This document shows, one piece after another, positions 1,625 to 60,190 of a stretch of DNA of 64,000 nucleotides (positions are counted from its first letter, which is position 1; each line of letters opens with the position of its first letter). The translations under genes were made by a program, and so were the position numbers. Below the pieces are notes generated by a model. It was not told the origin of the DNA. It worked only from the letters and a program-made list of their open reading frames with translations, and did not search any database. The stretch is from positions 13,981,992-14,045,991 of the forward strand of contig CM055907.1 in the NCBI GenBank assembly GCA_029582155.1, given 5' to 3'. The DNA comes from Panopea generosa. Lineage: Eukaryota; Mollusca; Bivalvia; Adapedonta; Hiatellidae.

Positions 1625-1832
1625 ATCTACCTATGTTCGAGCTCTTGCTGATCATAAGTATAACAGTGTGGATAAATTCTAAATCCAAATCTTCCAGAAG
1701 CTGTGGTTAGTTCCACTGATCAGTTCAACTTGAGATGTTCTTGAACTCATATTTTTAAATGCTATATCATCATTAACATTGATCATTTTGGATGTTATCC
1801 TTTACCAATGAGAAAAGATTTGTTCTGATTTC

Positions 1833-1838
1833 AATAAA
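1833..1838 (+). promoter_or_regulatory. Polyadenylation signal AATAAA of paralogue 1
   Basis: Canonical AATAAA 209 bases after the stop codon at 1624, followed by a GT-rich stretch (gtgtggtag). This makes it the likely 3' end of the first receptor gene. Confidence 0.6.
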
Positions 1839-2229
1839 GTGTGGTAGATTATGGTATATAATAGATTATGAGTTCAAATAATCATATGTAAAATGAAACT
1901 TTTGAGCTGAGGAATATATCAGTTTGAAACGGGGCCCTGTGTGTGTGTACCGTGTTTATAAACTAACAAGCAAGTTTCCATTCAACAAATAAGTACTATT
2001 TATGCATATTACTAATCCAAAACTTTCCAAAATCTTGACGATTACTTACAGGGCAAGAGCCAATTCTTGTTATATTCGAGCTGTTCTTATTTTATATTGT
2101 GTTTTATACATCTATATAGCTGAATGTATTGCCTTTTTCAGTTTTAAGAAAATTTTATCTTATCTTAATACCGTTGACGATTTTTATTTATTTATTTATT
2201 TTTTATGTTTTTATTTATTTATTAATCTA

Positions 2230-2262
<33 letters not shown>

Positions 2263-2949
2263 AAAACTATTTGATCAATTATTGAATATGTATTTAATAA
2301 TATGTCGTCGTATTAACTGTCTTCATGACGAAGATGATATGACGATATGGCGAATAAATTTGTAGATGTGGTTTAAACATGATTCGTTCAATCAATTCAA
2401 ACAACTGTAACTATAATGACTATCTTAATTATGTATTGAAGGGTTAAGGGATCTTACCGCTTTGATACACTTGTAATTAATTAAGAAAATCATGTTCAGT
2501 TTCACCATTTCATCGAGACTAGCAATTACACTAGGTGAGTATGTTCTGATATAATCAATTTGTGCAGAGCGTCGTTTTTGTTCTCATGAATTGATAAGTT
2601 TCCATGATGTGATGGGCGGTATATTTTTGAAATGGTTGTTATGTAATTTACAAGGCATTTCTGACATTTAGTTATATTGGTTAAGGAAGGCACCGGAGTA
2701 ATTCCAAGTTGAACCGTTTTTCTTCTGCAAGTCATTGGCAATATTTCTCACATAAATTACTTGTACCGAAACAGACTTGAGCAAATGACCACAAACGTGA
2801 AATATAAGTGACCTATGAGTCCTTAAACAATCGGTTAATGAAAACGTTTGGGTGAGCAATCTCCATGTCTTCAGATCAGTGGCTTATCACCGAAATCATC
2901 AAGCGAAACCAGATCGAAGGTAAGGAAATATAACACTATTGTATTGGAT
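1839..2949. other. Intergenic, little recognised
   Basis: Between the two receptor paralogues. Apart from the CTGT microsatellite at 2229-2262, no exon or known repeat is recognised. Confidence 0.5.
2229..2262. repeat. (CTGT)n microsatellite
   Basis: About eight uninterrupted CTGT units after a T/A-rich tract. Confidence 0.95.
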
Positions 2950-3402
2950 GACTTCATATCACATTTGTTAATATGGATTTTCCTATATGACGTTTACCTT
3001 ATTTGATATATTACATTGATAAAAATACTTAGATTCATAATATAGAAAATGTAACATATGTTTGTTATTTTATCTTTGTTGCTATAAATATATGCTTCTC
3101 ATAATATGTACATTTTGACAATGACGTTGTATTGATGAAGAAGTATGAGAAACGATTAAAGATTAATATTTTTCAGCATTTCATATCACATTTGTTGAAT
3201 GGATTTACCTATACGACGTTTACCTTATTGGATATAGTACATCATTGTATACATAGTTTCTCCATATAGAAAGTATTACATGTGTTTTTTTTTAAATTAA
3301 CTCTCTTACTATATCATTTACTTTTCATAACGTGAACACTGTTACAATGACATTGTATTGTTCAAGAAGTATGAGAAATTATTAAAGCTTTAATAGTTTT
3401 CT
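2950..3402. repeat. Tandem duplication, about 227-bp unit
   Basis: Two diverged copies start with ttcatatcacatttgtt at 2953 and 3180. Each contains tatrcgacgtttaccttat and ends with aagaagtatgagaaa...attaaag. A related, more diverged stretch lies near 31120-31190. Confidence 0.75.
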
Positions 3403-3664
3403 AACAAATGGTGTTAACAAGCATCCGCGTGGGTGTGGTAATAAGTGTATGAATTTCATATTGATTTCAATTGATCCTACAAATATTTCAGATCTTAAAG
3501 TCATACATAAATTATTTCGAGTTTCTTGGTGATTTTATTCGTTCAGCATTGTATTCAAGGACGATAAAACTAAAATATTGGAATTATTTGTTAGTTTTCT
3601 TTGCAAATACAACATAAATGTACATTAAAAACATAATATATCTATAAAATCGTGTTGTTTTCTT

Positions 3665-4019
3665 GAACGTCCATGCATACATCAAGGTTCGATTTCATTT
3701 ATAACACGTAAATCAAATGCATGGGATTGAGACTAGAACGTCCATACATGCATCAAGGTTCGATTTCATTTATAACACGTAAATCAAATGCATGGGATTG
3801 TGACTAGAACGTCCAAGCATATATCAAGGTTCGATTTCATTTATAACACGTCAATCAAATTTATGGGATTGGGCCTAGAACGTCCATACACACATCAAGG
3901 TTCGATTTTATTTATAACACGTAAATCAAATGTATGGGATTGTGACTAGAACGTCCATACATACATCAAGGTTCGATTTCATTTATAACACGTAAATTAA
4001 ATGCATGGGATTGAGTCTA
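3665..4019 (+). repeat. 71-bp tandem repeat, five copies
   Basis: Units start with gaacgtcca at 3665, 3736, 3807, 3878 and 3949, exactly 71 bases apart. Each contains catcaaggttcgatttcatt and ataacacgtaaatcaaatg. It lies just upstream of the signal-peptide exon, so it may be in the promoter region of the second receptor gene. Confidence 0.95.
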
Positions 4020-4284
4020 CAACGGCAAACTGCATTTATATCAAGAGTCGAGATCTGCGGTATTCTCAATAAGGACGATTATATACCTCTCCATATACAA
4101 TACTTAATGCGGAAAACGAAAGTTGACTCAATTCGATTCATTTGTTTAAAATTCATTGTTTACAATGGCAATTGTATAAACGGACTTTAAGAGGTATTGT
4201 ACACCAGCTTTGTCATATTTCCTTCACTAGTGAAAAGTTACCGAGTTCATTAACATTTAAATAATTGATACTACAAGACCGCCA

Positions 4285-21200: not shown

Positions 21201-24200
21201 CAAACTTGGGTTTTTCTACCTGTTGCGGCCGGTAGCTCATAAAGCATCTTATTAAAATAAGAGGTACCGTATGTCTAACAGCCTGGAAAAACTGGCTTTC
21301 GGGAAGAAACCGTGTACAATATTGTAGTTAAAACGTTTTATATGTTTTATTTATAGTGTCCTTTTCCATTCCTTAACACACATTTTTGAGTAAATACAAA
21401 TCAGTTTGGCATTCGTTGAAAAATCGATTTATTAGTGAAAATCAGTAGCATTTTTTTTTAATTCTGTTGAATAATATTGGAAATATCTGAAACATTATTT
21501 TGCTGTGCCAACTCAAAATTATGGTTCATGAAAATTTTGCATTTTTTTTGCACAGAAACTACATTTAAAACTACAATATACTGGGAATTACTGTTTTATC
21601 AATATTTTGGCGAATTAGCTATTCCGTTCAGTATATTAAAAAATGGGGAATACTTGATCTTCCCTAAGTTTCGTCTCATGCTTCTAATGGGCACTTTATT
21701 CACATACATGTATTATTGATGGAAGTTTTATACATACAAAAACATTTCGTTATTTTTCTAGTTCCAGATTTATCTTTCGATAACGTTAGTTCCGGTAAAG
21801 GTTTATACAATGGCGAATGTATTGTCTATGATACATCAACTGATACCTTCAAGTGGTTTGTATGCGACACCCGTGATAAGGAGAGTTTTAGTTCGTTGTG
21901 CCAAACGGAGAACGGGACACTTATTGTTGATTCTCTTCTTGTTGCAAACTGGAATGAGGCGGTTAAGAGATGCTTCGAGACTAATAGTTTCCCTGCCAGA
22001 CACCACTATATTTCGTCGATACCTAAACAACACATCAAGAATAGTAGCATGCTGTGGACTTCAATGTTTAGACTTAGCGTTCTCAGTACATATACTGGTA
22101 AGCCAGCTATGGGTGGATCAAATGTTGAAATCACATATCATCATAACGAGACATACACCTGTTTTGGGAGAAGAGAATTTAGGTCTCACTACACAGTTGA
22201 ATTTTGTACTTTGTTCTATATAGAATAAAGGCTAGGATTTCCATGGAAAAAATGAATTTCACATAGAATGTTGTCTAAAGTTTTCACAGCAGGAATGTAT
22301 ATCCACATACAAATGCACAATAACTGGTAGGTTGACCAGCGTGTTTTTTTATAGAGGGTGTAGTGACAACCTGATATTTTTTGAAAAAATAATTTCTTAA
22401 ATGCTCGTAAATACATGCTTATGTTGAAATCCTATAAAAGTCATTTTTTAACACCAGTGATGTCTTATTGTAGTATATGCTATGCCAACATTTTCTCTAC
22501 TCATCTGCAGTAAGAAATCACAACTATTAAGAACCATTTTGAAAATAATTAAAAACTAAATTACATGGGCCTTTTTTAAGCGTAAGAAGCATGTTACCGT
22601 GGGGAAAAAAGGGGCGTAACTGTGTAGTGAGACGTAAAATATATCGGTAGATGTCCAAGATGAGAAATAGTATTCACGAGTCATGAATATACATATGTAA
22701 TTAACTAATTTTTTAGCACGAGCATTTTTATGGTAATATCAGACACTCGTTATGTAATATCGTTAAGACCATCGAATTTTATTCAACAACTTTCGTTAAT
22801 AACCTGTGTGAACACCACGAGCAGTAGAACTATTGCGTGTATCACTCATTACAATATGTGATTCTATAGTGTCAAAGATAAATGTATTTATACTTGACAG
22901 TCTAATGGAATTTGGAAATAAAGAATATTTATTGTTTAACAGGACACTTGGTCCGGCCAATATCAATGTTGTTTATGTTATAAGCACAATTAAATGAAAG
23001 TACACATAAGTTTATGTAGCAGTCACCTTTAAGTAAAGAAAGACACTTCCTTTTTAAAAATCGATTAATTCTCTTATGCATACCACAAAACTATGATGTT
23101 TGCCGTGATTTCAATGCAAACTTTTGTATTACGAATTTAAGATGTGTGAAATGCCTGTTTTATGAAATGTTAATATTTTTATTTGTTTTTTATAATTATA
23201 TGTTTTACAGAACATAAACAAACTACTTACAGAGATAGTAACGCAATATTTGCAAACGATTTAGCTCATGTTTAAACAAAATATATGGAAGGAATCTTCA
23301 AGTTTAGAAATGTTATATTTTTCTTAAATTTATACTTTATAAAACCAAAGAGTCCATTTTTTTGTTGTGGTCTTCCTATTATTTTCAAACCAGATTCAAT
23401 AGTTTACAATTTTGAACAAATGAGTCAAGATCATGTGAGGATTTTCGATAATTAATATGGCTACCTTATAATTTGTATTAAACATGAACTACAATGTATA
23501 TTTGTTTCTTGACCAGACCTTTTGGTACTAGTATTGTTTAAAGCAGCATAACTAGTATTTGAAGATATTTTTTTTTATGAACAAATAAACAAGTTGTTTA
23601 TGAATGACAAACATTTTCGTGAAACCTCATGACCTTCGATGTATTTATAACAGCTGATACCTGTTTAAACGTGAATCAATTGTGTTTTAAATATTAATTT
23701 ACTGATCAGTAATTCTGGTATGCAAATTAATTCCTGCGCTGACGAACCTAGGTTTTTATATTAGAAGCTGTTTATGGAGCACTATAGAGAAAAAACCGTG
23801 CAGATATGGAAATGAACAATTTTATTTGTAACGGAATTCAAATATGAGCGATTAGAGCGAGTTTGAAAATATGTTTTTTTGCGATAAACAATTGTATTTT
23901 GCACTATGCATGATCAAGATAGTCAATATTACAAGTATAGCAGGTATTTTATTGATTTGACAGAAAGTAAAGAACTGGTTATGCCGCTTTAAATACGTTT
24001 AACGTTTTAACAACTGTAATTGTGTGAGTAAAAAAGTAGGAAGAAGTGAATTCACATCACTAAATAATAATGATTATATACAACATTCATTTATTTCATA
24101 CTCATTGACGTCACAGGTCAAGAGAGAAAACAAATTGCGGCATTTGGTCTCCTGAAAATATGGGGTAACAAAGGATTTATGATGTTGACTGGAAGTTCTA

Positions 24201-29720: not shown

Positions 29721-29884
29721 ATTGGAAGGCGGTATTTCATAACACATTTGTTCACGTGGATTAACCAGTATTGGTTAAAACATATTTTATTTCCAGTATT
29801 TTCAGATAAATAATTACAGTATTCAAAATATAAAGTACTAGAATGAAAGAATGCCATTCGTATAAAGTTTTTCACCAAAAAAGC

Positions 29885-30797
29885 TTAATATGTACAGTGT
29901 AACATAGTGGTGCATTTAGGGATATGATAACACAACAGCTTTATATGTACAGTGTAACAAAGTGGTTCATTTAGAGATATGACAACACAATAGCTTAATA
30001 TGTACAGTGTAACATAGTGGTACATTTAGGGATATGATAACACAATAGCTTAATATGTACAGTGTAACATATTGGTACATTTAGAGATGCGATGACACAA
30101 TAGCTTAATATGTACGATTTAACATAGTGGTACATTTAGAGATGCGATAACACAATAGCTTATTATGTACAGTGGTACATTTAGGGATGCAATAATACAA
30201 TAGCTTAGTATGTACGGTGTAACATAGTGGTACATTTAGGGATGCGATAACACAATAGCTTAATATGTACGGTGTAACATAGTGGTACATTTAGGGATGC
30301 AATAACACAATAGCTTAATATGTACAGTGTAACATAGTGGTACATTTAGGGATGCGATAACACAATAGCTTAATATGTACGGTGTAACATAGTGGTACAT
30401 TTAGGGATGCGATAACACAATAGCTTAATATGTACGGTGTAACATAGTGGTACATTTAGGGATGCGATAACACAATAGCTTAATATGTACGGTGTAACAT
30501 AGTGTTACATTTAGGGATGCAATAACACAATAGCTTAATATGTACGGTGTAACATAGTGGTGCATTTAGGGATGCAATAACACAATAGCTAATATGTACG
30601 GTGTAACATAGTGGTACATTTAGGGATGCGATAACACAATAGCTTTATATGTACAGTGTAACATAGTGGTACATTTAGGGATGCGATAACACAATAGCTT
30701 AATATGTACAGTGGTACATTTAGGGATATGATAACACAATAGCTTAATGTGTACAGGGTAACATAGTGGTACATTTAGAGATACGATAACACAAAGC
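29885..30797. repeat. 55-bp tandem repeat, about 16 copies
   Basis: Unit gataacacaatagcttaata followed by tgtacggtgtaacatagtgg and tacatttagggatgc. The period is exactly 55 between 30356 and 30411, and some units are shortened by loss of the gtgtaacata part. There are no unique spacers, so it is not a CRISPR array. Confidence 0.95.
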
Positions 30798-30829
30798 TTT
30801 TTTGTCACTGAACAAATTTGTAAATAAAT

Positions 30830-32584: not shown

Positions 32585-33020
32585 TAAGGTCTCACTACAC
32601 TGTTGAATTTTGTTGTTTGCTCTATATAAAATAAGGTCTAGGGTTTCCACAGTAATATAGATTCCACATAGATTATTTTAAAATATTTTTTTTCATAGCA
32701 GAATCTATCCCCATCTCAAAAGTCACAAATAACTGGTTGGCTGACAAGCTTGTTTGTTTTTAAAAACTGTGCAGTGACACCCCAAGATCGTTTTTAAGTC
32801 CACAAATGCTCATAAATACATGTATAAACATGTATAGTCAATGTTTTAACACCAGTGATATCGTATTGCAGTAAATGATATGCCAGCTTTTGCTCTACTC
32901 ATCTGCAGCAAGAAACAACAACCACTACGAACCATTTTGAAACACTTTTTTAAGCATAAGAATCATGTTACCTTGGTAAAAAAGGGGCTCAACTGCGTAC
33001 TGAGACGTATTTACAATAGA
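32585..33020. mobile_element. MITE-S copy B
   Basis: Starts aggtctcactacactgttga and ends tgcgtactgagacgta. It contains ataaaataaggtctagggtt, so one 47-bp unit is bounded by ggtct on both sides, as in the satellite. It also has the body words taacaccagtgatatcgtat and ctactcatctgcagcaagaa shared with copy A. Confidence 0.85.
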
Positions 33021-38600: not shown

Positions 38601-41600
38601 ATTTTTGTATAATGAACACTATCACTAAAATTTAATATTTGATCGTATTACCACATTCTTCTGATTAAAAGAAAATTTATTATGAATTTTCAAAAACGTA
38701 ATATGATTTCTTTATATCGTTACGAGCAATCAGAACTGGTTCTACACTGTTAACTATAGTTTTGTTAAAGATAGTTAAAGATAGTTAGAGATAGTTTTGT
38801 TAAAGATAGTTAAGACAAAAACGTATGTAACTATTTACCTTCTTTCATTTTGCATATGGCTTTTAGCAGATGAAATACTATTATATACGACTTTTCAATC
38901 CGCGAATGTTAAAAATAGTGAAAATAAGGTCAAACGGTCTAATGTAAGTCTTCGGAAAACGCCATGGTGGTAGCTGACCATTTGAATAATGCTTAAATAA
39001 TTCAAATTCTAACAAAAACCTATGTAACTATTTACCTCTTTCATTTTGCATATGACTTTTAGCAGATGAAACATGGACATCTATTTCTGCAACATAACCA
39101 AAGTATCAACATTACACAAAACCTAAAAGCAATTTATAAAGAAAAGACAAGGTTAGTGCCTTTCCGTACAAAGTTTATTAGGTGAGGCTTAGAAAACGCA
39201 ACAATTGCGAGGCTCTGCCGAGCCATTCATGCATTTTCGTGCTGAACCTTATAAACTTTATAGAAAAAGACATTTTATTTGTACTGTTAGATAAGCAAGT
39301 AACGTTTTGAAAGAATAAAGGATTGAGCTAGCAGAACTAAGCTTCTAATTATTAACTAAAAATAAAAATTAAGTATGTTTATTTGTTATGTATTTTAATA
39401 AATTAACAAAAAAAAACAATAATATGTAATTGTTTTCTTACCATATCTGTCGTAATTAACTAGTAAAAATTAAAATAAATTAAAACAAACAAGTTGTTAT
39501 CAGTCGAAAGTGCCAGCTTCAGTCGCAACATCTCGGACAATAAAATTTACACGAAGAAATCCAAGTAATATGAAATTGATGTTTATTTGGATACCCCATT
39601 ATTATATCTAATAATGACTTGTGATAGGATGAAAGCGTTTACAAATCTCTCTCTCTCTTAATTTCATATTATCTTTATCGGAAATGTCAAACATGTAAAC
39701 AATAGCTCAAAGTCGGTCCTCTCTTTTAAGAAATACACATTTATATAGTTATTTATTTACTCGCCTTTTAAAAAAAATAGTAGGAGTCTTTAGGAATGGT
39801 TTCAACAATACTATGAAGTTAACCCATTTATTTACGATTATTTTTGTTATTACAAAAAATGTGCATTTCGGAAGTTAAACGAGTCTTTAAGACTATCATT
39901 CAACGATAGTCCATAATATGTAATAAAAGAGTCATGTTCGAAGGAATGCTATAAAGAAAAGCATATATTTAGTGATACATATCAATATGCTAGTCTCACA
40001 TTAAGTACATTTTCGTTCAAACTGTATATATTTACAATACGTGGCCGAGTGGTCTAATGCACCGTCTCAAGATCATTTATCGCTCACCAATAAGTCCCTC
40101 TCGCTCCAAAAACTTCATGTGAGAAAGTTTACCAGTTACTTGCGGAAAGACAGCGGTTCTACTCAGATTCATTCTGAAGTCTACCTTAAACAAATATAAC
40201 CTGAAATGTGTTGAAAATGGCGTAGAAATATATATATATAAAAATAAAATGATATACATATATCATGCGTCATACCATTCATTTCCCTGCAGGGAACATT
40301 GCCGTGTTTTCCTTCGTCTGAGCATGCGCACTTGTAGTCTTTTTTAGAAATCGGCAAACATAAGTGGCTGCAGGTACTTTGTAGGCATTTACTAAAAGCT
40401 GATAAAAGAGATAATATTGTCATGTCATTAACAGTATAACTTTGAACTCGACAAACTTGATATTGTTCACATACATTGTTTGCTGTTCGGTAAAATATTC
40501 GTTTGAGTTCAGTACAAATATCTTATTTCGAATCTTATTTAATTTGTCTGATAGGTAATTAAGATCTCCTTATTATATGCCCTTTAAATCATTGTGCATA
40601 AAGCAATGGATATGTACTAACTTTCATTTAAATCCAGACAGGAATAAGCATGAAACAAACTTTTTTGAAATTCACCACCTACTAAGTCAAAATTCACAAT
40701 TACATTAGGGTCAGGTATGTAAACTATTTGCAGCGTTTGAAAGTGTTATTCCATGCCTGGTTAACGTTCGAATAAAAATGCATCAAAATATGTGGATGAG
40801 AAAGACGTCTTGTTTTTTAAACAAACATCATACATATTGAATTGGGTCAAGGTCAATGAGGTCGGGAAGTATCGCATTGTTACTGATGCAATTGTGAATT
40901 TTGACTTTGCCAGTGGTACATTTAAAAAATGTTAACATGCTTATTCCTGTCTGAATTTAGATGAAATTATCTGAAAATATGCCCAATGAATTTGTTCAAT
41001 AGAGTGTAAATTAAAATATCGAATTTGCAAACTCGTGTTGACGAAATGTCAATATATGCAGGTAACCGATTACAACTTTTGTTGAGTGTACTTTACTATT
41101 GCAATGAAACATATCCGTCGTGGGTTCGATTCCCCGCACCACTAAATGTGAGATGTCCTGTAGTAAAAAAAATAGAAAAACTATACCCAACAGGAGATGC
41201 AGTATTTAAAAGACGCCTCCACAAAAGCAGTTTGAACGCAATTAATATACAGAATACTTAAAACTGGAATAAAAAGTACAATGCATATATAGATAAGAAG
41301 TGACAACAGCGGTCAACGCTTTCGAATGGCCAGTAACAAAAACGCCACTGGGGAGCTCAGACCTCGATAACAGATGCACCCAACCTCTCTCCTTCCCCCG
41401 GCGTCACATCATAAAACGAGATATTGTAATCGAATGTATAACCCGTCAGACTAGAATTTTACTTTTACAAATACGACAGCATCCACATGTGTATATTGTA
41501 AAACAAAGAAATGCTCAGTACCAAATATATATTTCAAACATAAAAGAAAATGATGCTATATGAAGAACACTTTATCCGCATATTAATAATCGTTATACAC

Positions 41601-44600
41601 AAGAAGACTTCAAGGGTGACTCGATTGGTGTAAAACAAACCGTTTAAAACAATAAAAAAACACAATAAAATTATACAGTTAGTGACGAAGAAAGTGCTAA
41701 CGTTATGGACAAGTATATGGAGCATTCAGGTATCACTACAAAGTTGAATTTTGTTCTTGGTTCTATATAAAATAAGGTCTAAGATTTCAACGTTAAAATT
41801 TTTTTCCCATAGACTATTTTTTAAAGTATTCTTTACATAGCAGGAATGTATCTGTACATAAAATTGGTTATATAAATTAAGGTCTCACTACACAGTTGAA
41901 TTTTGAGCTTGGTTCTATATAAAATAAGGTCTCACTACACAGCTGAATTTAGTTCTTGGTTCTATATAAAATAAGGTCTCCCTACACAGTTGAATTTTGA
42001 GCTTGGTTCTATATGAAATAAGGTCTCACTACACAGCTGAATTTTTAGCTTGGTTCTATATAAAATAATATCTCACTACGCAGTTGAATTTTTTTCTTGG
42101 TTCTATCTAACAGAAGGTCTCACTATACAGTTGAATTTTGTTTTTGGATCTATATGAAATAAGGTCTCACTACACAGTTGAGATTTGATCTTGGTTCTAT
42201 ATAAAATAAGGTCTCACTACACAGTTGAATTTTGATCTTGGCTCTATATAAAATAAGGTTTCACTACACAGATGAATTTTGTTCTTGGTTCTATATAACA
42301 GAAGGTCTCACTATACAGTTGAATTTTGATTTTGGTTTTATATAAAATAAGGTCTCACTACACAGATGATTTTTGATCTTGGTTCTATATAAAACAAGGT
42401 CTCACTACACAGTTGAATTTTGAGCTTGGTTCTATATAACAGAAGGTCTCACTACACAGTTGAATTTTGATTTTGGTTCTATATAACAGAAGGTCTCACT
42501 ACACAGTTGAATTTTGAACTTGGTTCTATATAAAATAAGGTCTCACTACACATTGGAATTTGTTCTTGGTTCTATAAAACGTAAGTCTCACTACACAGTT
42601 GAATTTCGTTTTTGGTTCTATAAAACATAAGGTCTCACTACACAGTTGAATTTTATTTTTGGTTCCATATAAAATAAGGTCTCACTACACTGATGAATTT
42701 TATCTTTGTTCTATATCAAATAAGGTCTCACTACACAGTTGAATTTTGAGCTTGGTTCTATATAACAGAAGATCTCACTACACAGTTGAATTTTGTTCTT
42801 GGTTCTATATAACAGAAGGTCTGACTTCACAGGAAAAATTTTTTTTTGATTCTTTATAAAACAAGGTCTAACTACACAGTTGAATTTTGTTTTTGGTTCT
42901 ATATAAAATAAGGTCTCACTACACAGTTGAATTTTGATCTTGGCTCTATTTAAAATAAGGTTTCACTACACAGATGAATTTTGTTCTGTTTCTATATACT
43001 AGAAGGTCTCACTATACAGTTGAATTTTGTTTTTGGTTCTATATAAAATAAGGTCTCACTACACTGATGATTTTTGACCTTGGTTCTATATAAAATAAGG
43101 TCTCACTACACAGTTGAATTTTGAGTTTTGTTCTATATAACAGAAGGACTCACTACACAGTTGAATTTTGAGCTTGGTTTTATATAACAGAAGGTCTCAT
43201 TACACAGTTGAATTTTGTTTTTGGTTTTATATAAAATAAGGTCTCACTACACAGTTGAATTTTGAGCTTGGTTCTATATAACAGAAGGTCTCACTACACA
43301 GTTGAATTTTGTTCTTGGTTCTATATAACAGAAGGTCTCACTTCACAGGAAAATTTTGTTTTTGATTCTTTATAAAACAAGGTCTAACTACACAGTTGAA
43401 TTTTGTTTTTGGTTCTATATAAAATAAGGTCTCACTACACAGTTAAATTTTGATATTGGCTCTATTTAAAATAAGGTTTCACTACACAGATGAATTTTGT
43501 TCTTGGTTCTTTATAACAGAAGGTCTCACTATACAGTTGAATTTTGTTTTTGGTTCTATATAAAATAAGGTCTCACTACACAGATGATTTTTGATCTTGG
43601 TTCTATATAAAATAAGGTCTCACTACACAGTTGAATTTTGAGCTTTGTTCTATATAACAGAAGGTCTCACTACACAGTTGAAATTTGTTTTTGGTTCTAT
43701 ATAACAGAAGGTCTCATTACACAATTGAATTTTGTTTTTGGTTCTATATATAAAAAGGTCTCACTACACAGTTGAACTTTGAACTTAGTTCTATATCAAA
43801 TAAGGTCTCACTACACAGTTGAATTTTGTTCTTGGTTCTATAAAACGTAAGTCTCACTACACAGTTGAATTTCGTTTTTGGTTCTATATAAAATACGTAT
43901 CACTTCACTGATGATTTTTTATCTTGATTCTTTATAAAATAAGGTCTCACTACACAGTTGAATTTTGAGCTTGGTTCTATATAACAGAAGGTCTCACTAC
44001 ACAGTTGAATTTTGTTCTTGGTTCTATATAACAGAAGGTCTCACTACACAGGAAAATTTTGTTTTTTATTCTATATAAAACAAAGTCTCACTACACAGTT
44101 GAATTTTGTTTTTGGTTCTATATAACAGAAGGTCTCACTACACAGTTGCATTTTGAGCTTGGTTCTATATAAAATAAGGTCTCACTACACAGTTGAATTC
44201 TGTTCTTGGTTCTATAAAACATAAGATATCACTATACAGTTGAATTTTGTTTTTGGTTCTATATAAAATAAGGTCTCACTACATAGATTAATTTTTATCT
44301 TGGTTCTATATAAAATAAGGTCTCACTACACAGTTGAATTTTGTTCTTGGTTCTATAAAACGTAAGTCTCACTACACAGTTGAATTTCGTTTTTGGTTCT
44401 ATAAAACATAAGGTCTCACTACACAGTTGAATTTTGTTTTTGGTTCCATATAAAATAAGGTCTCACTACACTGATGATTTTTATCTTGGTTCTATATAAA
44501 ATAAGGTCTCACTACACAGTTGAATTTTGAGCTTGGTTCTGTATAACAGAAGGTCTCACTACACAGTTGAATTTTGTTCTTGGTCCTATATAACAGAAGG

Positions 44601-47600
44601 TCTCACTTCACAGGAAAATTATTGTTTTTGATTCTATATAAAACGAGGTCTAACTACACAGTTGAATTTTGTTTTTGGTTCTATATAAAATGAGGTCTCA
44701 CTACACAGTTGAATTTTGATCTTGGCTCTATATAAAATAAAGTTTCACTACACAGATGAATTTTGTTCTTAGTTCTATATAACAGGATGTCTCACTATAC
44801 AGTTGAATTTTGTTTTTGGTTCTATATAAAATAAGGTCTCACTACACAGATGATTTTTGATCTTGGTTCTATATAAAATAAGGTCTCACTACACAGTTGA
44901 ATTTTGATCTTGGTTCTATATAACAGAAGGTCTCACTACACAGTTGAATTTTGTTTTTGGTTCTATATAACAGAAGGTCTCATTACACAGTTGAATTTTG
45001 TTTTTGGTTCTATATAAAATAAGGTCTCACTACCGAGTTGAATTTTGAACTTGGTTCTATATCAAATAAGGTCTCACTACACAGTTGAATTTTGTTCTTG
45101 GTTCTATCAAACGTAAGTCTCACTACACAGTTGAATTTTGTTTTTGGTTCTATATAAAATAAGGTCTCACTACACAGTTGAATTTTGAGCTTGGTTCTAT
45201 ATAAAATAAGGTCTCCCTACACAGTTGAATTCTGTTCTTGGTTCTATAAAACATAAGATATTACTATACAGTTGAATTTTGTTTTTGGTTCTTTATAAAA
45301 TAAGGTCTCACTACATAGATTAATTTTTATCTTGGTTCTATATAAAATAAGGTCTCACTTCACAGCTGAATTTTGTTTTTGGTTCTAAATAAAATAAGGT
45401 CTCACTTCACAGCTGAATTTTGTTCTTGGTTCTATATAAAATATTGTCTCACTACACAGCTGAAATTTGTTCTTGGTTCTATATAAAATAAGGTCTCACT
45501 ACACAATTGAGATTTGATCTTGATTCTATATAAAATAAGGTCTCACTACATCGATGAAAATAGGGTCTCACTACGCAGTTGAATTTTGTTCTTGGTTCTA
45601 TATAAAATAAGGTCTCACTACACATCTGAATTTTGAGCTTGGTTCTATAGAAAATAATGTCTCACTACACAGCTGAATTTTAATCTTGGTTTATATAAAA
45701 TAAGTTCTCACTACACAGTTTATTTTTGTTTTTTGTTATACATCAAAAAATATCTCAATACACAGTTGAATTTTGTTCTGGTTCTATATAAGCAACAACC
45801 TGTCTTAAATGGACACTTTTGGTTATTCCCTTGACGGGCTGCTTAAGACAGGTTTGACAGTACTCGGTAATTAAAAATAGGGGTATTTTAAACAACGTAA
45901 CTGATATTTAAATAAGATGGTACAGTAATTTGAAATAGATTACCAGTTCTAATGTTCTTTTTCGGGTATGCAACGATTCCATTCAATCATGCAAATTGTG
46001 GTGGACCAACTTGCTATAAAGATTTCTTTCCATTTATGTTTATTCTACGAACATACCTGTAATACCAAAATTGACAATTATTCAGGATGGGATGTTGCAA
46101 TGTACAATGAACTGCAACACTGTCACAGGAGTTATATCAAACACTTATAGTGTACATGTGGAATGACATCACATCCAATAGTAAATTTCACAGATTGAAT
46201 TGCTTCAATTTCTGATGGATAAAAGAGCATTGTGCAATCTTAAATCATTGTAGTTGTTATGGAATACTGGTTGTTTTCTCCGTGTCAAAGACATACTGTC
46301 CATACAAATAAGGAGTTCAACTGACTAATTGAAATGCAGACAGGTAAGCATCATGCTAAATGTAATTGAGACTTGCATATAAACAGTATGAAACGAATGC
46401 ACAAAACTTGATTTTTTAAGTATAAGAATCGGCAGTGAAGAGTGTAAATATATATACCTGACGTGGGCTGTCAATCAGAAGCATCGATAATCCAATCAGC
46501 GATCAATGTTGGTTGCTACGACACCACAAGAAAGCTATGCCGAAGCAAACACTACATTGTATTTACTTGGACAAAGAAGGTTTGTGGTCAGCGGACGGGA
46601 GTAATACTTGTTGTTACACAAAGTCAATTATAATAAGCATTTTGCAGTAACAATAACAGCCCATTAAAATGTTACTGTATGTAGGTGTAATCCTAAATAA
46701 GTACAAATAATTTATAAAATACAAAGCATCGAGTTATCAACAAAAAAGGATGCAACAATACTGCAAACGTGCCACTGCGGAGTAAAATCTGGTCACTGTC
46801 GCACACTTATATTGCAATAAAAGGTTTTCTGTGTTCGAGAAGTCCAGGGCGCGGACGGTATCCAATCATTTACATGTACGACAGAACGGTGGTTCAACTC
46901 AGATTCATACTCGGGTCTACCTCAACTAATAAAAATGTAACGTGCGATGTGTTTAAAGGGAATATACCAGGATTTTTTCAAAATTTTAAAGTTGGTTAAA
47001 AACATTTGTTTTTCAATATACCAGACCTATATATACTCACTGAACCCGTATTGCCGAACAAACGTATACAATAATACATTGAAAAGGGATTCGCAGACCT
47101 TCTAAAACCAGTCAAACCTGTGTAAGCGGTCACCTCTATTAAGCAGCCATTTGTCTTAAGCAGCCATATTTTCTATTTCCCATTTCTATGTTTTCAGAGT
47201 AAATTAACCTGTATTAAGCAACAACCTTTCTTAAAATGTCAATTTTGCCCCTTCTTTTGACTGGCTTCCTCAGACAGGTTTCCCTGTAAGTGCAACATTG
47301 ACGTTCATGTAAACCTACACACTACTATCTGTCTATCTACTCATACTGCAACACCCTTTTGCGATGACCACGTGCAGGCAGAACGTGTACAGGATTACTG
47401 GCACTTGCATCACTGATTGACAAATAGTTCAGTGAGATATTTCATGTACACTGGGTATGACTCTCGCTGTACACGGGTCGACTGCTTTAAATTGTCTCCG
47501 AAGGATTCCATGCTTTCACAGTCCCTTGCCAAAGCAGGTACTGTGGAAATGCGTTTGAAAATTTCCGAACGAAACTAGGAACACGTATGCTTAACCAGAA

Positions 47601-57062: not shown

Positions 57063-57870
57063 ACTGCAGTCGGTATCATCATGATGGGATTAGTATGGCA
57101 GTCGGTATGGCAGGATAAGTATGGCAGTCGGTATGGCAGGATAAGTATGGCAGTCGGTATGACAGGATAAGTATGGCAGTCGGTATGGCAGGTTAAGTTA
57201 CGCAGTCGGTATGGCGGGTATAGTATGGCAGTCTGTATGGCGGGTTAAGTATGGCATTCTGTATGGTGGGTTTAGTATGGCAGTCGGTATGGCGGGTTTA
57301 GTATGGCAATCAGTATGGCCGGTTTAGTATGGCAATCTGTATGGCCGGTTTAATATGGCAGTCAGTATGGCCGGTTTATTATGGCAGTCTGTATGTCAGG
57401 TTTAGTATGGCAGTCAGTATGATGGGTTAAGTATGGCAGTCAGTATGGTGGGTTTAGTATGGTAGTCGATATGGTGAGTTTAGAATAGCAGTCTGTATGG
57501 CGGGTTAAGTATGGTAGTCGGTATGGTGGGTTTAGTATGTCTGTCAGTTTGGTTGTTAAAATATGGCAGTTGGAATGGCGGGTTTAGTACGGCAGTCAGT
57601 ATGATTGTTTAAGTATGGCAGTCAGTATGGTGGGTTTAGTATGGCAGTCGATATGGTGGGTTCAGTATGGCAGTCGGTATGGCAGGCTAAGTATGGTAGT
57701 CGGTATGGTGGGTTTATTATGGCAGTCAGTTTAGTTGTTTTAGTATGGCAGTCGGAATGGCGGGTTAAGTATGGCAGTCAGTATGATGGGTTAAGTATGG
57801 CAGTCGATATGGTGTTTTAGTATAACACTCAGTTTGGTTGTTTTAGAATGGCAGACTGTATGGTGATTTC
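57063..57870. repeat. 26-bp minisatellite, main block
   Basis: About 30 units of the gtatggcagtcggtatggcg plus ggttta type. Confidence 0.95.
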
Positions 57871-58904: not shown

Positions 58905-60190
58905 TATTTTCGTTCCGTACCGTATAACTAGTATAAAATCAAGTTCCATACCGTATAACTAGTATATTATCAAGTTCCGTACCGTATAACTAGTATAATA
59001 TCAAGTTCCGTACCGTATAACTAGTACAATATCAAGTTCCGTACCATATAACTAGTATAATATCAAGTTCCGTACCGTATAACTAGTACAAAATATCAAG
59101 TTCCGTACCGTATAACAAGTATAATATCAAGTTCTGTACCGTATAACTAGTATAAAATCAAGTTCCGTACCGTATAACTAGTATAAAATCAAGTTCCGTA
59201 CCGTATAAATAGTACAATATCAAGTTCCGTACCGTATAACTAGTACAATATCAAGTTCTGTACCGTATATCTAGTATAATATCAAGGTCCGTACCGTATA
59301 ACTAGTATAAATTCAAGTTCCGTACCGTATAACTAGTATAATATCAAGTTCCGTACCGTATATCTAGTATAATATCAAGTTCTGTACCATATAACTAGTA
59401 AAATATCAAGTTCCGTACCGAATAACTAGTATAAAATCAAGTTCCGTACTATATAACTAGTATAATATCAAGTTCCGTACCGTATAACTAGTATAAAATC
59501 AAGTTCTATACCGTATAACTAGTATAACATCAAGTTATATACCGTATAACTAGTATAACATCCAGTTCTGTACCGTATTACTAGTATAATATCAAGTTCT
59601 GTACCGTATAACTAGTATAACATCAAGTTCTATAACGTATAACTAGTATAACATCAAGTTTCATACCGTATTACTAGTATAACATCAAGTTACATACCGT
59701 ATTACTAGTATTACATCCAGTTCCATACCGTATTACTAGTATAATATCAAGTTCCATACCGTATAACTAGTATAACATCAAGTTCCGTACCGTATTACTA
59801 GTATAACATCAAGTTCCGTACCGTATAAATAGTACAACATCAAGTTCCGTACCGTATAACTAGTATAACATCAAGTTTCATACCGTATTACTTGTATAAC
59901 ATCAAGTTACATACCGTATAACTAGTATAACATCCAGTTCCATACCGTATTACCAATATAATATCAAGTTCCATACCGTATAACTAGTATAACATCAAGT
60001 TACATACCGTATAACTAGTATAACATCAATTTTTGTACCGTATATATAGTATAACATCAAGTTCCAATATCATAATACTAGTATAACATCATGTTCCATA
60101 CCGTATAACTAGTATAACATCAAGTTCCATACGATATTTCTAGTAAAACATCAAGTTCCATACCGTATTGCTAGCATAATATAAAGTTTC
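58905..60190. repeat. 31-bp satellite, about 41 copies
   Basis: Unit agttccgtaccgtataacta then gtataatatca. Left part mostly ttccgtaccg; right part shifts to ttccataccg and aacatca, so subfamilies form two blocks. An inverted single copy (aatacggtacggaat) lies upstream at about 58851-58865. Confidence 0.95.

Follow-up and report, generated by a model that had tools for sequence, protein, structure and literature searches.

Probable origin of a 47-bp tandem array from the left end of one MITE copy in Panopea generosa

The window and its MITE-S family

The 64,000-nucleotide stretch of the Panopea generosa genome analysed here (assembly GCA_029582155.1, contig CM055907.1, forward-strand positions 13,981,992 to 14,045,991; hereafter the window) holds two complete copies, A and B, of a miniature inverted-repeat transposable element (MITE) family termed MITE-S, and a third, truncated copy, C, that leads into a head-to-tail array of 47-bp monomers (Table 1). 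The monomer contains the terminus of the transposon, and plain and composite structures coexist, as is found for tandem repeats derived from the terminal inverted repeats (TIRs) of MITEs. A search against Rfam gave 0 matches in the window.

Table 1. Positions of MITE-S copies, of the parts of the 47-bp array and of arrays built on the MITE-S right end (plain numbers are window positions; C numbers denote contigs)
Feature	Position	Strand	Details	Basis
MITE-S copy A, complete	22182-22634	+	left-end 47-bp unit 22182-22228; right TIR ~22618-22634	alignment and TIR
MITE-S copy B, complete	32588-33007	+	left-end unit 32588-32634	alignment
Terminal unit of MITE-S copy C	41729-41775	+	starts GGTATC; unit position 31 is the diagnostic G	
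Retained body of copy C, 88 bp	41776-41863	+	truncation point common to paralogous loci	alignment with A and B bodies
Junction, partial monomer opening the array	41864-41880	+	from TTGG, monomer position 29; TTG overlap with body variants of some copies	
47-bp tandem array, ~84 monomers	41881-45791	+	weak higher-order pattern, lags 11, 15, 26, 27, 38	
First stretch right of the array	45792-45862	+	probably the ancestral right edge of the array; related copy a further ~1.4 kb downstream	
42-bp x 31 array at right end of MITE L037	C19:13842632-13843920 (L048:8633-9921)			
Apparent right-end-core array	C5:88.647-88.650 Mb			genome query matches
Apparent right-end-core array	C7:64.448-64.450 Mb			genome query matches
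Apparent right-end-core array	C9:25.691-25.696 Mb			genome query matches
Apparent right-end-core array	C10:35.838-35.839 Mb			genome query matches
Apparent right-end-core array	C12:52.137-52.140 Mb			genome query matches
Apparent right-end-core array	C12:53.071-53.075 Mb			genome query matches

Alignment of copies A and B (72% identity over 464 aligned columns) confirmed that each carries one unit at its left end and that their termini are inverted repeats of about 16 bp (GGTCTCACTACACAGTT), as an initial annotation of this DNA had proposed; the copies that it placed at 22180 and 32585 are real, with boundaries corrected to those of Table 1. The unit had further been described as bounded by GGTCT on both sides, and a second GGTCT does sit 47 bp from the left terminus of MITE-S, mutated to GGCT in copy A. 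The genome searched comprises 1.474 Gb in 39 contigs, whose labels seem to be ordered by size (C1 101 Mb, C19 42 Mb, C22 5.1 Mb). A query with the MITE returned 5258 first-look candidates, and among the best 40, which were scored, copy A has dispersed relatives at 85-87% identity and eight paralogs, 92-97% identical, that share its C14 region; among the matches scored, MITE-S copies were listed on 17 of contigs C1-C19. Both element ends were matched in 30/30 loci from this query, and the elements are about 420-470 bp long, features of a short, much dispersed element with terminal inverted repeats. These 30 loci (including A and its eight paralogs), 27 from the list returned by a query with the array junction and copy B form a set of 58 MITE loci, in all of which exactly one unit match was present (58/58, a few of them partial). 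The proposed check for copies with one, two or three units was thus borne out for the single unit, and no dispersed MITE-S copy with two or three was found among the 58.

Both ends could be read in 16 copies, of which 7 are flanked by an exact 4-bp target-site duplication (2.05 on average in shuffles, p 0.0004), while duplications of 2, 3, 5 or 6 bp showed no excess over shuffling in the same 16. The duplicated motifs are TNNA or near it (TTAA, TACA, TTGA, TATA, TTAT); at A and B themselves no clean duplication was seen, with 2/4 and 0/4 letters agreeing. MITE-S is a short non-autonomous DNA transposon family with a 4-bp target duplication of TNNA type.

The tandem array that had been reported as some 83 units from 41735 is present, with a different beginning: copy C starts at 41729, and wraparound parsing from 41864 resolves 85 monomers to 45791, 82 of them near full length, with a mean identity to the consensus of 91.2%. 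Tandem Repeats Finder (TRF) places the 47-bp array at 41869-45791. Copy C does not lose its body and pass straight into monomers, as first described, since 88 bp of body are kept and the array opens in the middle of a monomer. No BLAST match to the right half of the element was obtained with A and B as queries, either within 10 kb around C or in 12 paralogous 10-kb loci. By unit size the array, which is local, is a minisatellite, and "satellite" is a generous name for it.

Direction of derivation

The consensus of the array and that of the MITE unit differ at one base, position 31, which is T in the MITE and G in the array. To count this base across the family we collapsed the 58 loci to 48 sites, leaving out the eight paralogs of A (L050-L057) and two duplicate loci (L029, L033) and keeping uncollapsed four C23 loci whose spacing resembles that of two duplicated pairs. 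G31 occurs in 0/48 of these sites, and all 48 have T. Within the array it accounts for 76/83 letters in the window and for 327/359 letters over 13 loci, and the first unit of copy C carries it at 12/12 loci that keep that unit, the remaining locus, L020, being without the start of C. Of the other array letters, A26, G27 and C43, together with any letter but T at position 16, are array-only (0/48 MITE sites), G45 occurs in 0/46 readable sites and T28 in 2/48. Because of this distribution of G31 and of the array-only alleles, copy C, or a sequence closely resembling it, is the probable source of the array, and the dispersed MITE-S copies examined do not appear to be its products.

The direction first proposed, from MITE to array, is upheld by the single unit at 58/58 loci and by the absence of G31 from the 48 sites. 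What changes is the place of A and B: cast as ancestors, they are on the sequence comparison better regarded as cousins of the array source, which would be C, and not as array products. A late array variant shared by A and B would have pointed the other way, and none of G31, A26, G27 and C43 was found in the MITE sites (0/48).

A unit common to MITE and array could in principle fit either direction, and a pre-existing 47-bp minisatellite might have been captured by an ancestor of the MITE as its left end, following the capture model of Scalvenzi and Pollet (2014) that the relevant passages of PMC12628747 propose for miDNA4. We regard this as very improbable here. The derived array alleles are missing from 48/48 MITE sites, and the array consensus is the MITE unit plus one change; the unit includes a terminal inverted repeat that the opposite end of the MITE matches; and the array junction was met only within a duplicated segment (40 scored of 877 candidates), whereas the MITE is dispersed (40 scored of 5258).

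Duplication of the segment and proposed birth of the array

The history of the locus after the array had formed can be followed at paralogous sites. A 166-bp query spanning the junction of copy C and array gave 877 candidates in the genome, and among the best 40, which were scored, the junction is crossed by 12 other close copies, 11 at C14:13.40-14.94 Mb and one on C28. Counted with the window, 12 of these at least 13 loci fall within 1.5 Mb of one chromosome. Both flanks are shared with the window at 11/12 of these loci (upstream 89-97%, downstream 91-99% identity), which argues for segmental copying in which the array itself was not transposed. The twelfth locus, L020, is rearranged, and in its 10 kb only inverted pieces of the upstream flank are shared with the window. 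Queried with the upstream flank, the genome yielded 13 matches extending as far as the insertion, 12 of them directly adjoining an array, and a fourteenth, partial match (query 1-153). Spread of the array by transposition was considered and rejected, both flanks being common to the window and 11/12 other loci. The array predates the segmental duplication.

The arrays at the 13 loci are at most 4 kb each, measuring 3928 (window), 3971, 1725, 1725, 1421, 589, 589, 588, 578, 207 and 160 bp, with two more (282 + 902 and 96 + 120 bp) interrupted by a common insertion. This insertion, shared by L011 (3242-3431) and L012 (3368-3558), looks by eye like a tRNA-type short interspersed element and has a probable target duplication, GTTCTTRG. 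Such a graded series, running from 160 and 207 bp through about 590, 1421 and 1725 to 3928 and 3971 bp, could be taken for stepwise growth from few units to many, and few-unit loci had been anticipated as growth steps. The flanks tell a different story. A tree of flank sequences groups L013/L014 in one clade and L015/L017/L018/L019 in another; with the window's downstream flank as reference the array is joined to flank position 1339 in the first clade and to about 1299 in the second, while the window, L009, L010, L011, L012 and L016 join it at position 1. Since about 1.3 kb of downstream flank is missing next to the six short arrays of these clades, their shortness is best ascribed to deletion of the right part of the array. 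L011 and L012, moreover, share the insertion in their arrays yet differ in array length on both sides of it. We consider it improbable that the sizes at the 13 loci record growth.

The closest comparison is with L016, whose upstream flank is 97.9% identical to that of the window. At the two outer edges the arrays remain in register, 29 monomers on one side and 15 on the other showing some 0.5 and 0.7 differences per 47 bp, with one extra unit among the 15. The middle turns over, with gains and losses of one to four units and 1.5-4.6 differences per monomer. This is the pattern expected of unequal exchange within a head-to-tail array.

How the first units arose is suggested by the joint between monomers, AATAA-GGTCT-CAC, in which the inner GGTCT (positions 48-52) is fused to the terminal GGTCT (positions 1-5). 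The joint falls on the 47-bp-spaced direct repeat that the initial annotation had named as the seed. Where the target site is TTAA the direct repeat extends to 8 bp (TAAGGTCT), spaced exactly 47 bp, and a repeat of at least 8 bp at that place occurred in 0.35% of shuffled bodies (shuffles keeping TTAAGGTCT); an 11-bp repeat, longer and T-rich, is present elsewhere in the first 200 bp of MITE-S. That the terminal unit simply grew outward, as originally envisaged, does not account for the locus, since the 88 bp of body and the mid-monomer joint intervene. Passage from the body of C into the middle of a monomer needs an extra event, for which a short TTG overlap would be available if C had the body variant of some copies.

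We propose a sequence of events in which copy C would have inserted at one locus and acquired the T31 to G change in its left-terminal 47 bp. A direct repeat, (A)GGTCT, lay on either side of these 47 bp, formed by the terminus itself and by a copy 47 bp inside. A microhomology-mediated event, by template switching or by end joining in break repair, would then have led from about 135 bp into C back into the terminal unit, and repeated slippage or exchange at GGTCT would have produced head-to-tail units, with the right two thirds of C lost. The young array would have grown and been rearranged by unequal exchange, before segmental duplication carried it to at least 12 further places, at each of which it may have expanded and contracted separately. 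A microhomology template switch with GGTCT slippage would account for the two joints as well as for the missing right two thirds of C. A reinserted circle made from C would explain them as well; we infer the order of these steps, the mechanism of repair and any role of transposase breaks at the terminus from the structure of the locus.

The circle belongs to a wider alternative in which the units formed elsewhere, from another MITE-S copy or as an extrachromosomal circle, before the broken body of C was joined to them. End joining would give what is seen here, 88 bp of body, a short overlap and an array that opens in mid-monomer. G31, common to the first unit of C and the array and present in 0/48 other MITE sites, speaks against a distant donor and narrows the source to C or a very close copy, a restriction that a circle made from C would satisfy together with the mid-monomer start. 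We hold such ectopic joining to be rather unlikely.

Several observations weigh against the birth of the array from copy C followed by spread with the duplicated segment. The separation of array from MITE depends mainly on position 31: in a tree of units that includes it the best split holds 84/90 array and C units against 0/58 MITE units, and with it removed the two sets no longer separate (best split 51/90 against 9/58). The main escape is that G31 could have reached the first unit of C by gene conversion from the array. The A4 peculiar to C (GGTATC) is absent from the array consensus, which means either that A4 arose after the birth or that the present unit of C was not the template. The target site of C itself is TTCA, which leaves a terminal direct repeat of no more than 6 bp, a length reached in 5% of shuffles, and no copy with two or three units beside an intact body was found, leaving the first step unseen. 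The thirteenth upstream-flank match (C14:14559385-14559932, minus strand, 95%) ends 7.5 kb from the L020 array, and may be either the displaced flank of L020 or an array-free or empty site. With these points counted, we give a probability of about 0.83 to the explanation as a whole, that the array was born from the left end of copy C and then spread by segmental duplication.

Arrays at the right end of MITE-S and known systems

The other end of the element is also tandem at one locus, and apparently at several more. On C19 an array of about 31 copies of a 42-bp unit stands directly at the right end of MITE L037, the only one of the 58 loci at which TRF detected an array unit taken from a MITE end. 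Its unit consists of the last 24-28 bp of the MITE, TTAA and about 12 bp of a sequence that is met again at the far end of the array, ahead of the unique flank; it is thus composed of element end (AAGGGGCGCAACTGTGTAGTGAGA), target site and flank, and runs across the element boundary. A genome query with this array, in which all 30 first-look candidates were scored, identified about 20 other places, at some of which a single short stretch matched. The sequence was read at C19, and the other places are known from the query matches. Across eight of these loci, differences between match starts give periods of 42 (C5), 40 (C7), about 46 (C9), 53 and 45 (two places on C12) and, from four differences, 38 (C10), with no clear period at C1 and C17. 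Outside C19, matches start at phase 16 of the 42-bp unit in 46/126 and end at phase 37 in 76/126, counts that are not independent as the 126 matches overlap within loci; the two phases appear to bound a core equal to the right end of the MITE. The same core at different periods suggests separate births of these arrays. That MITE-S ends are recurrent birthplaces of tandem arrays, perhaps through repair of transposase breaks at the termini, is a tentative proposal to which we assign slightly less than even odds.

At two further loci a minisatellite directly abuts a MITE-S copy, of 31 bp at L061 (from about 1973, oriented) and of 40 bp at L068 (about 993-1504, oriented), and no MITE-end motif was seen in either adjoining array. 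The target sites of these copies are clean (TTAA/TTAA) or nearly so (TTAA/TTAT), and the adjacency is either a coincidence, the genome being rich in repeats, or the result of a target preference. In the window, positions 41268-41415 match (~70-83%) a repeat about 150 bp long, arrayed in tandem at C14:9.58-10.38 Mb, and TRF found further minisatellites at 29882-30799 (55 bp), 57086-57863 (26 bp), 58912-60188 (31 bp) and 3665-4024 (71 bp).

By its features the case is one of a known kind, a tandem repeat from a MITE or foldback element, of which Xstir, TIR-220 and miDNA4 are examples. Bivalve MITE-like elements with tandem repeats carry them as internal core repeats, and those of Donax are reportedly of the repeat-bearing type; as far as such elements are described, the present case differs in that the array lies outside an intact element. 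Pearl/CvA, HindIII and BIV160 of bivalves are entered as MITE-like elements linked to tandem repeats in Table 1 of PMC9659126. In Xenopus, the account that PMC12628747 gives of Xmix/Xstir (Hikosaka and Kawahara 2004) has plain MITE, tandem array and composite coexisting, as they do here, and the source region of Xstir is given as TIR in Table 1 of PMC9659126 and as internal sequence in the passage of PMC12628747; compared with that account, the P. generosa unit begins at the terminus and its array is traced to one copy by a diagnostic base. The Tetris foldback element of Drosophila virilis, in the section of PMC4079207 that treats it, gave rise to the TIR-220 satellite, with unequal exchange proposed. 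There too the terminal repeat of a non-autonomous DNA transposon gave the monomer of kb-sized arrays, but TIR-220 as described is contained in long TIRs and its number within the element is variable, whereas the MITE-S unit is single (58 loci) and at the very terminus. For miDNA4 of Xenopus tropicalis, the corresponding parts of PMC12628747 and PMC9659126 report a MITE whose unit occurs singly or in arrays and propose direct repeats of at least 5 bp as seeds, a likeness to MITE-S in both respects; that unit lies within the element and its capture from a pre-existing repeat is proposed, whereas the MITE-S unit is terminal and its array derived.

In summary, the merit of the MITE-S locus lies in its resolution, with a source copy, a diagnostic base, a unique junction and a paralogous series. 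Satellite origins are often inferred from similarity alone, and here the source copy, the direction, the later turnover and the deletions at the array edge can all be traced. Section 2.2 of the review PMC9659126 states that there is no conclusive evidence as to which features of transposon ends start tandem arrays. The pattern AACTGTGTAGTGAGAC N{8,38} AACTGTGTAGTGAGAC would give, through its match lengths, the periods of arrays derived from the MITE-S end, and if the right-end arrays are indeed separate births, this one family would provide many replicates for defining the end features that initiate an array.

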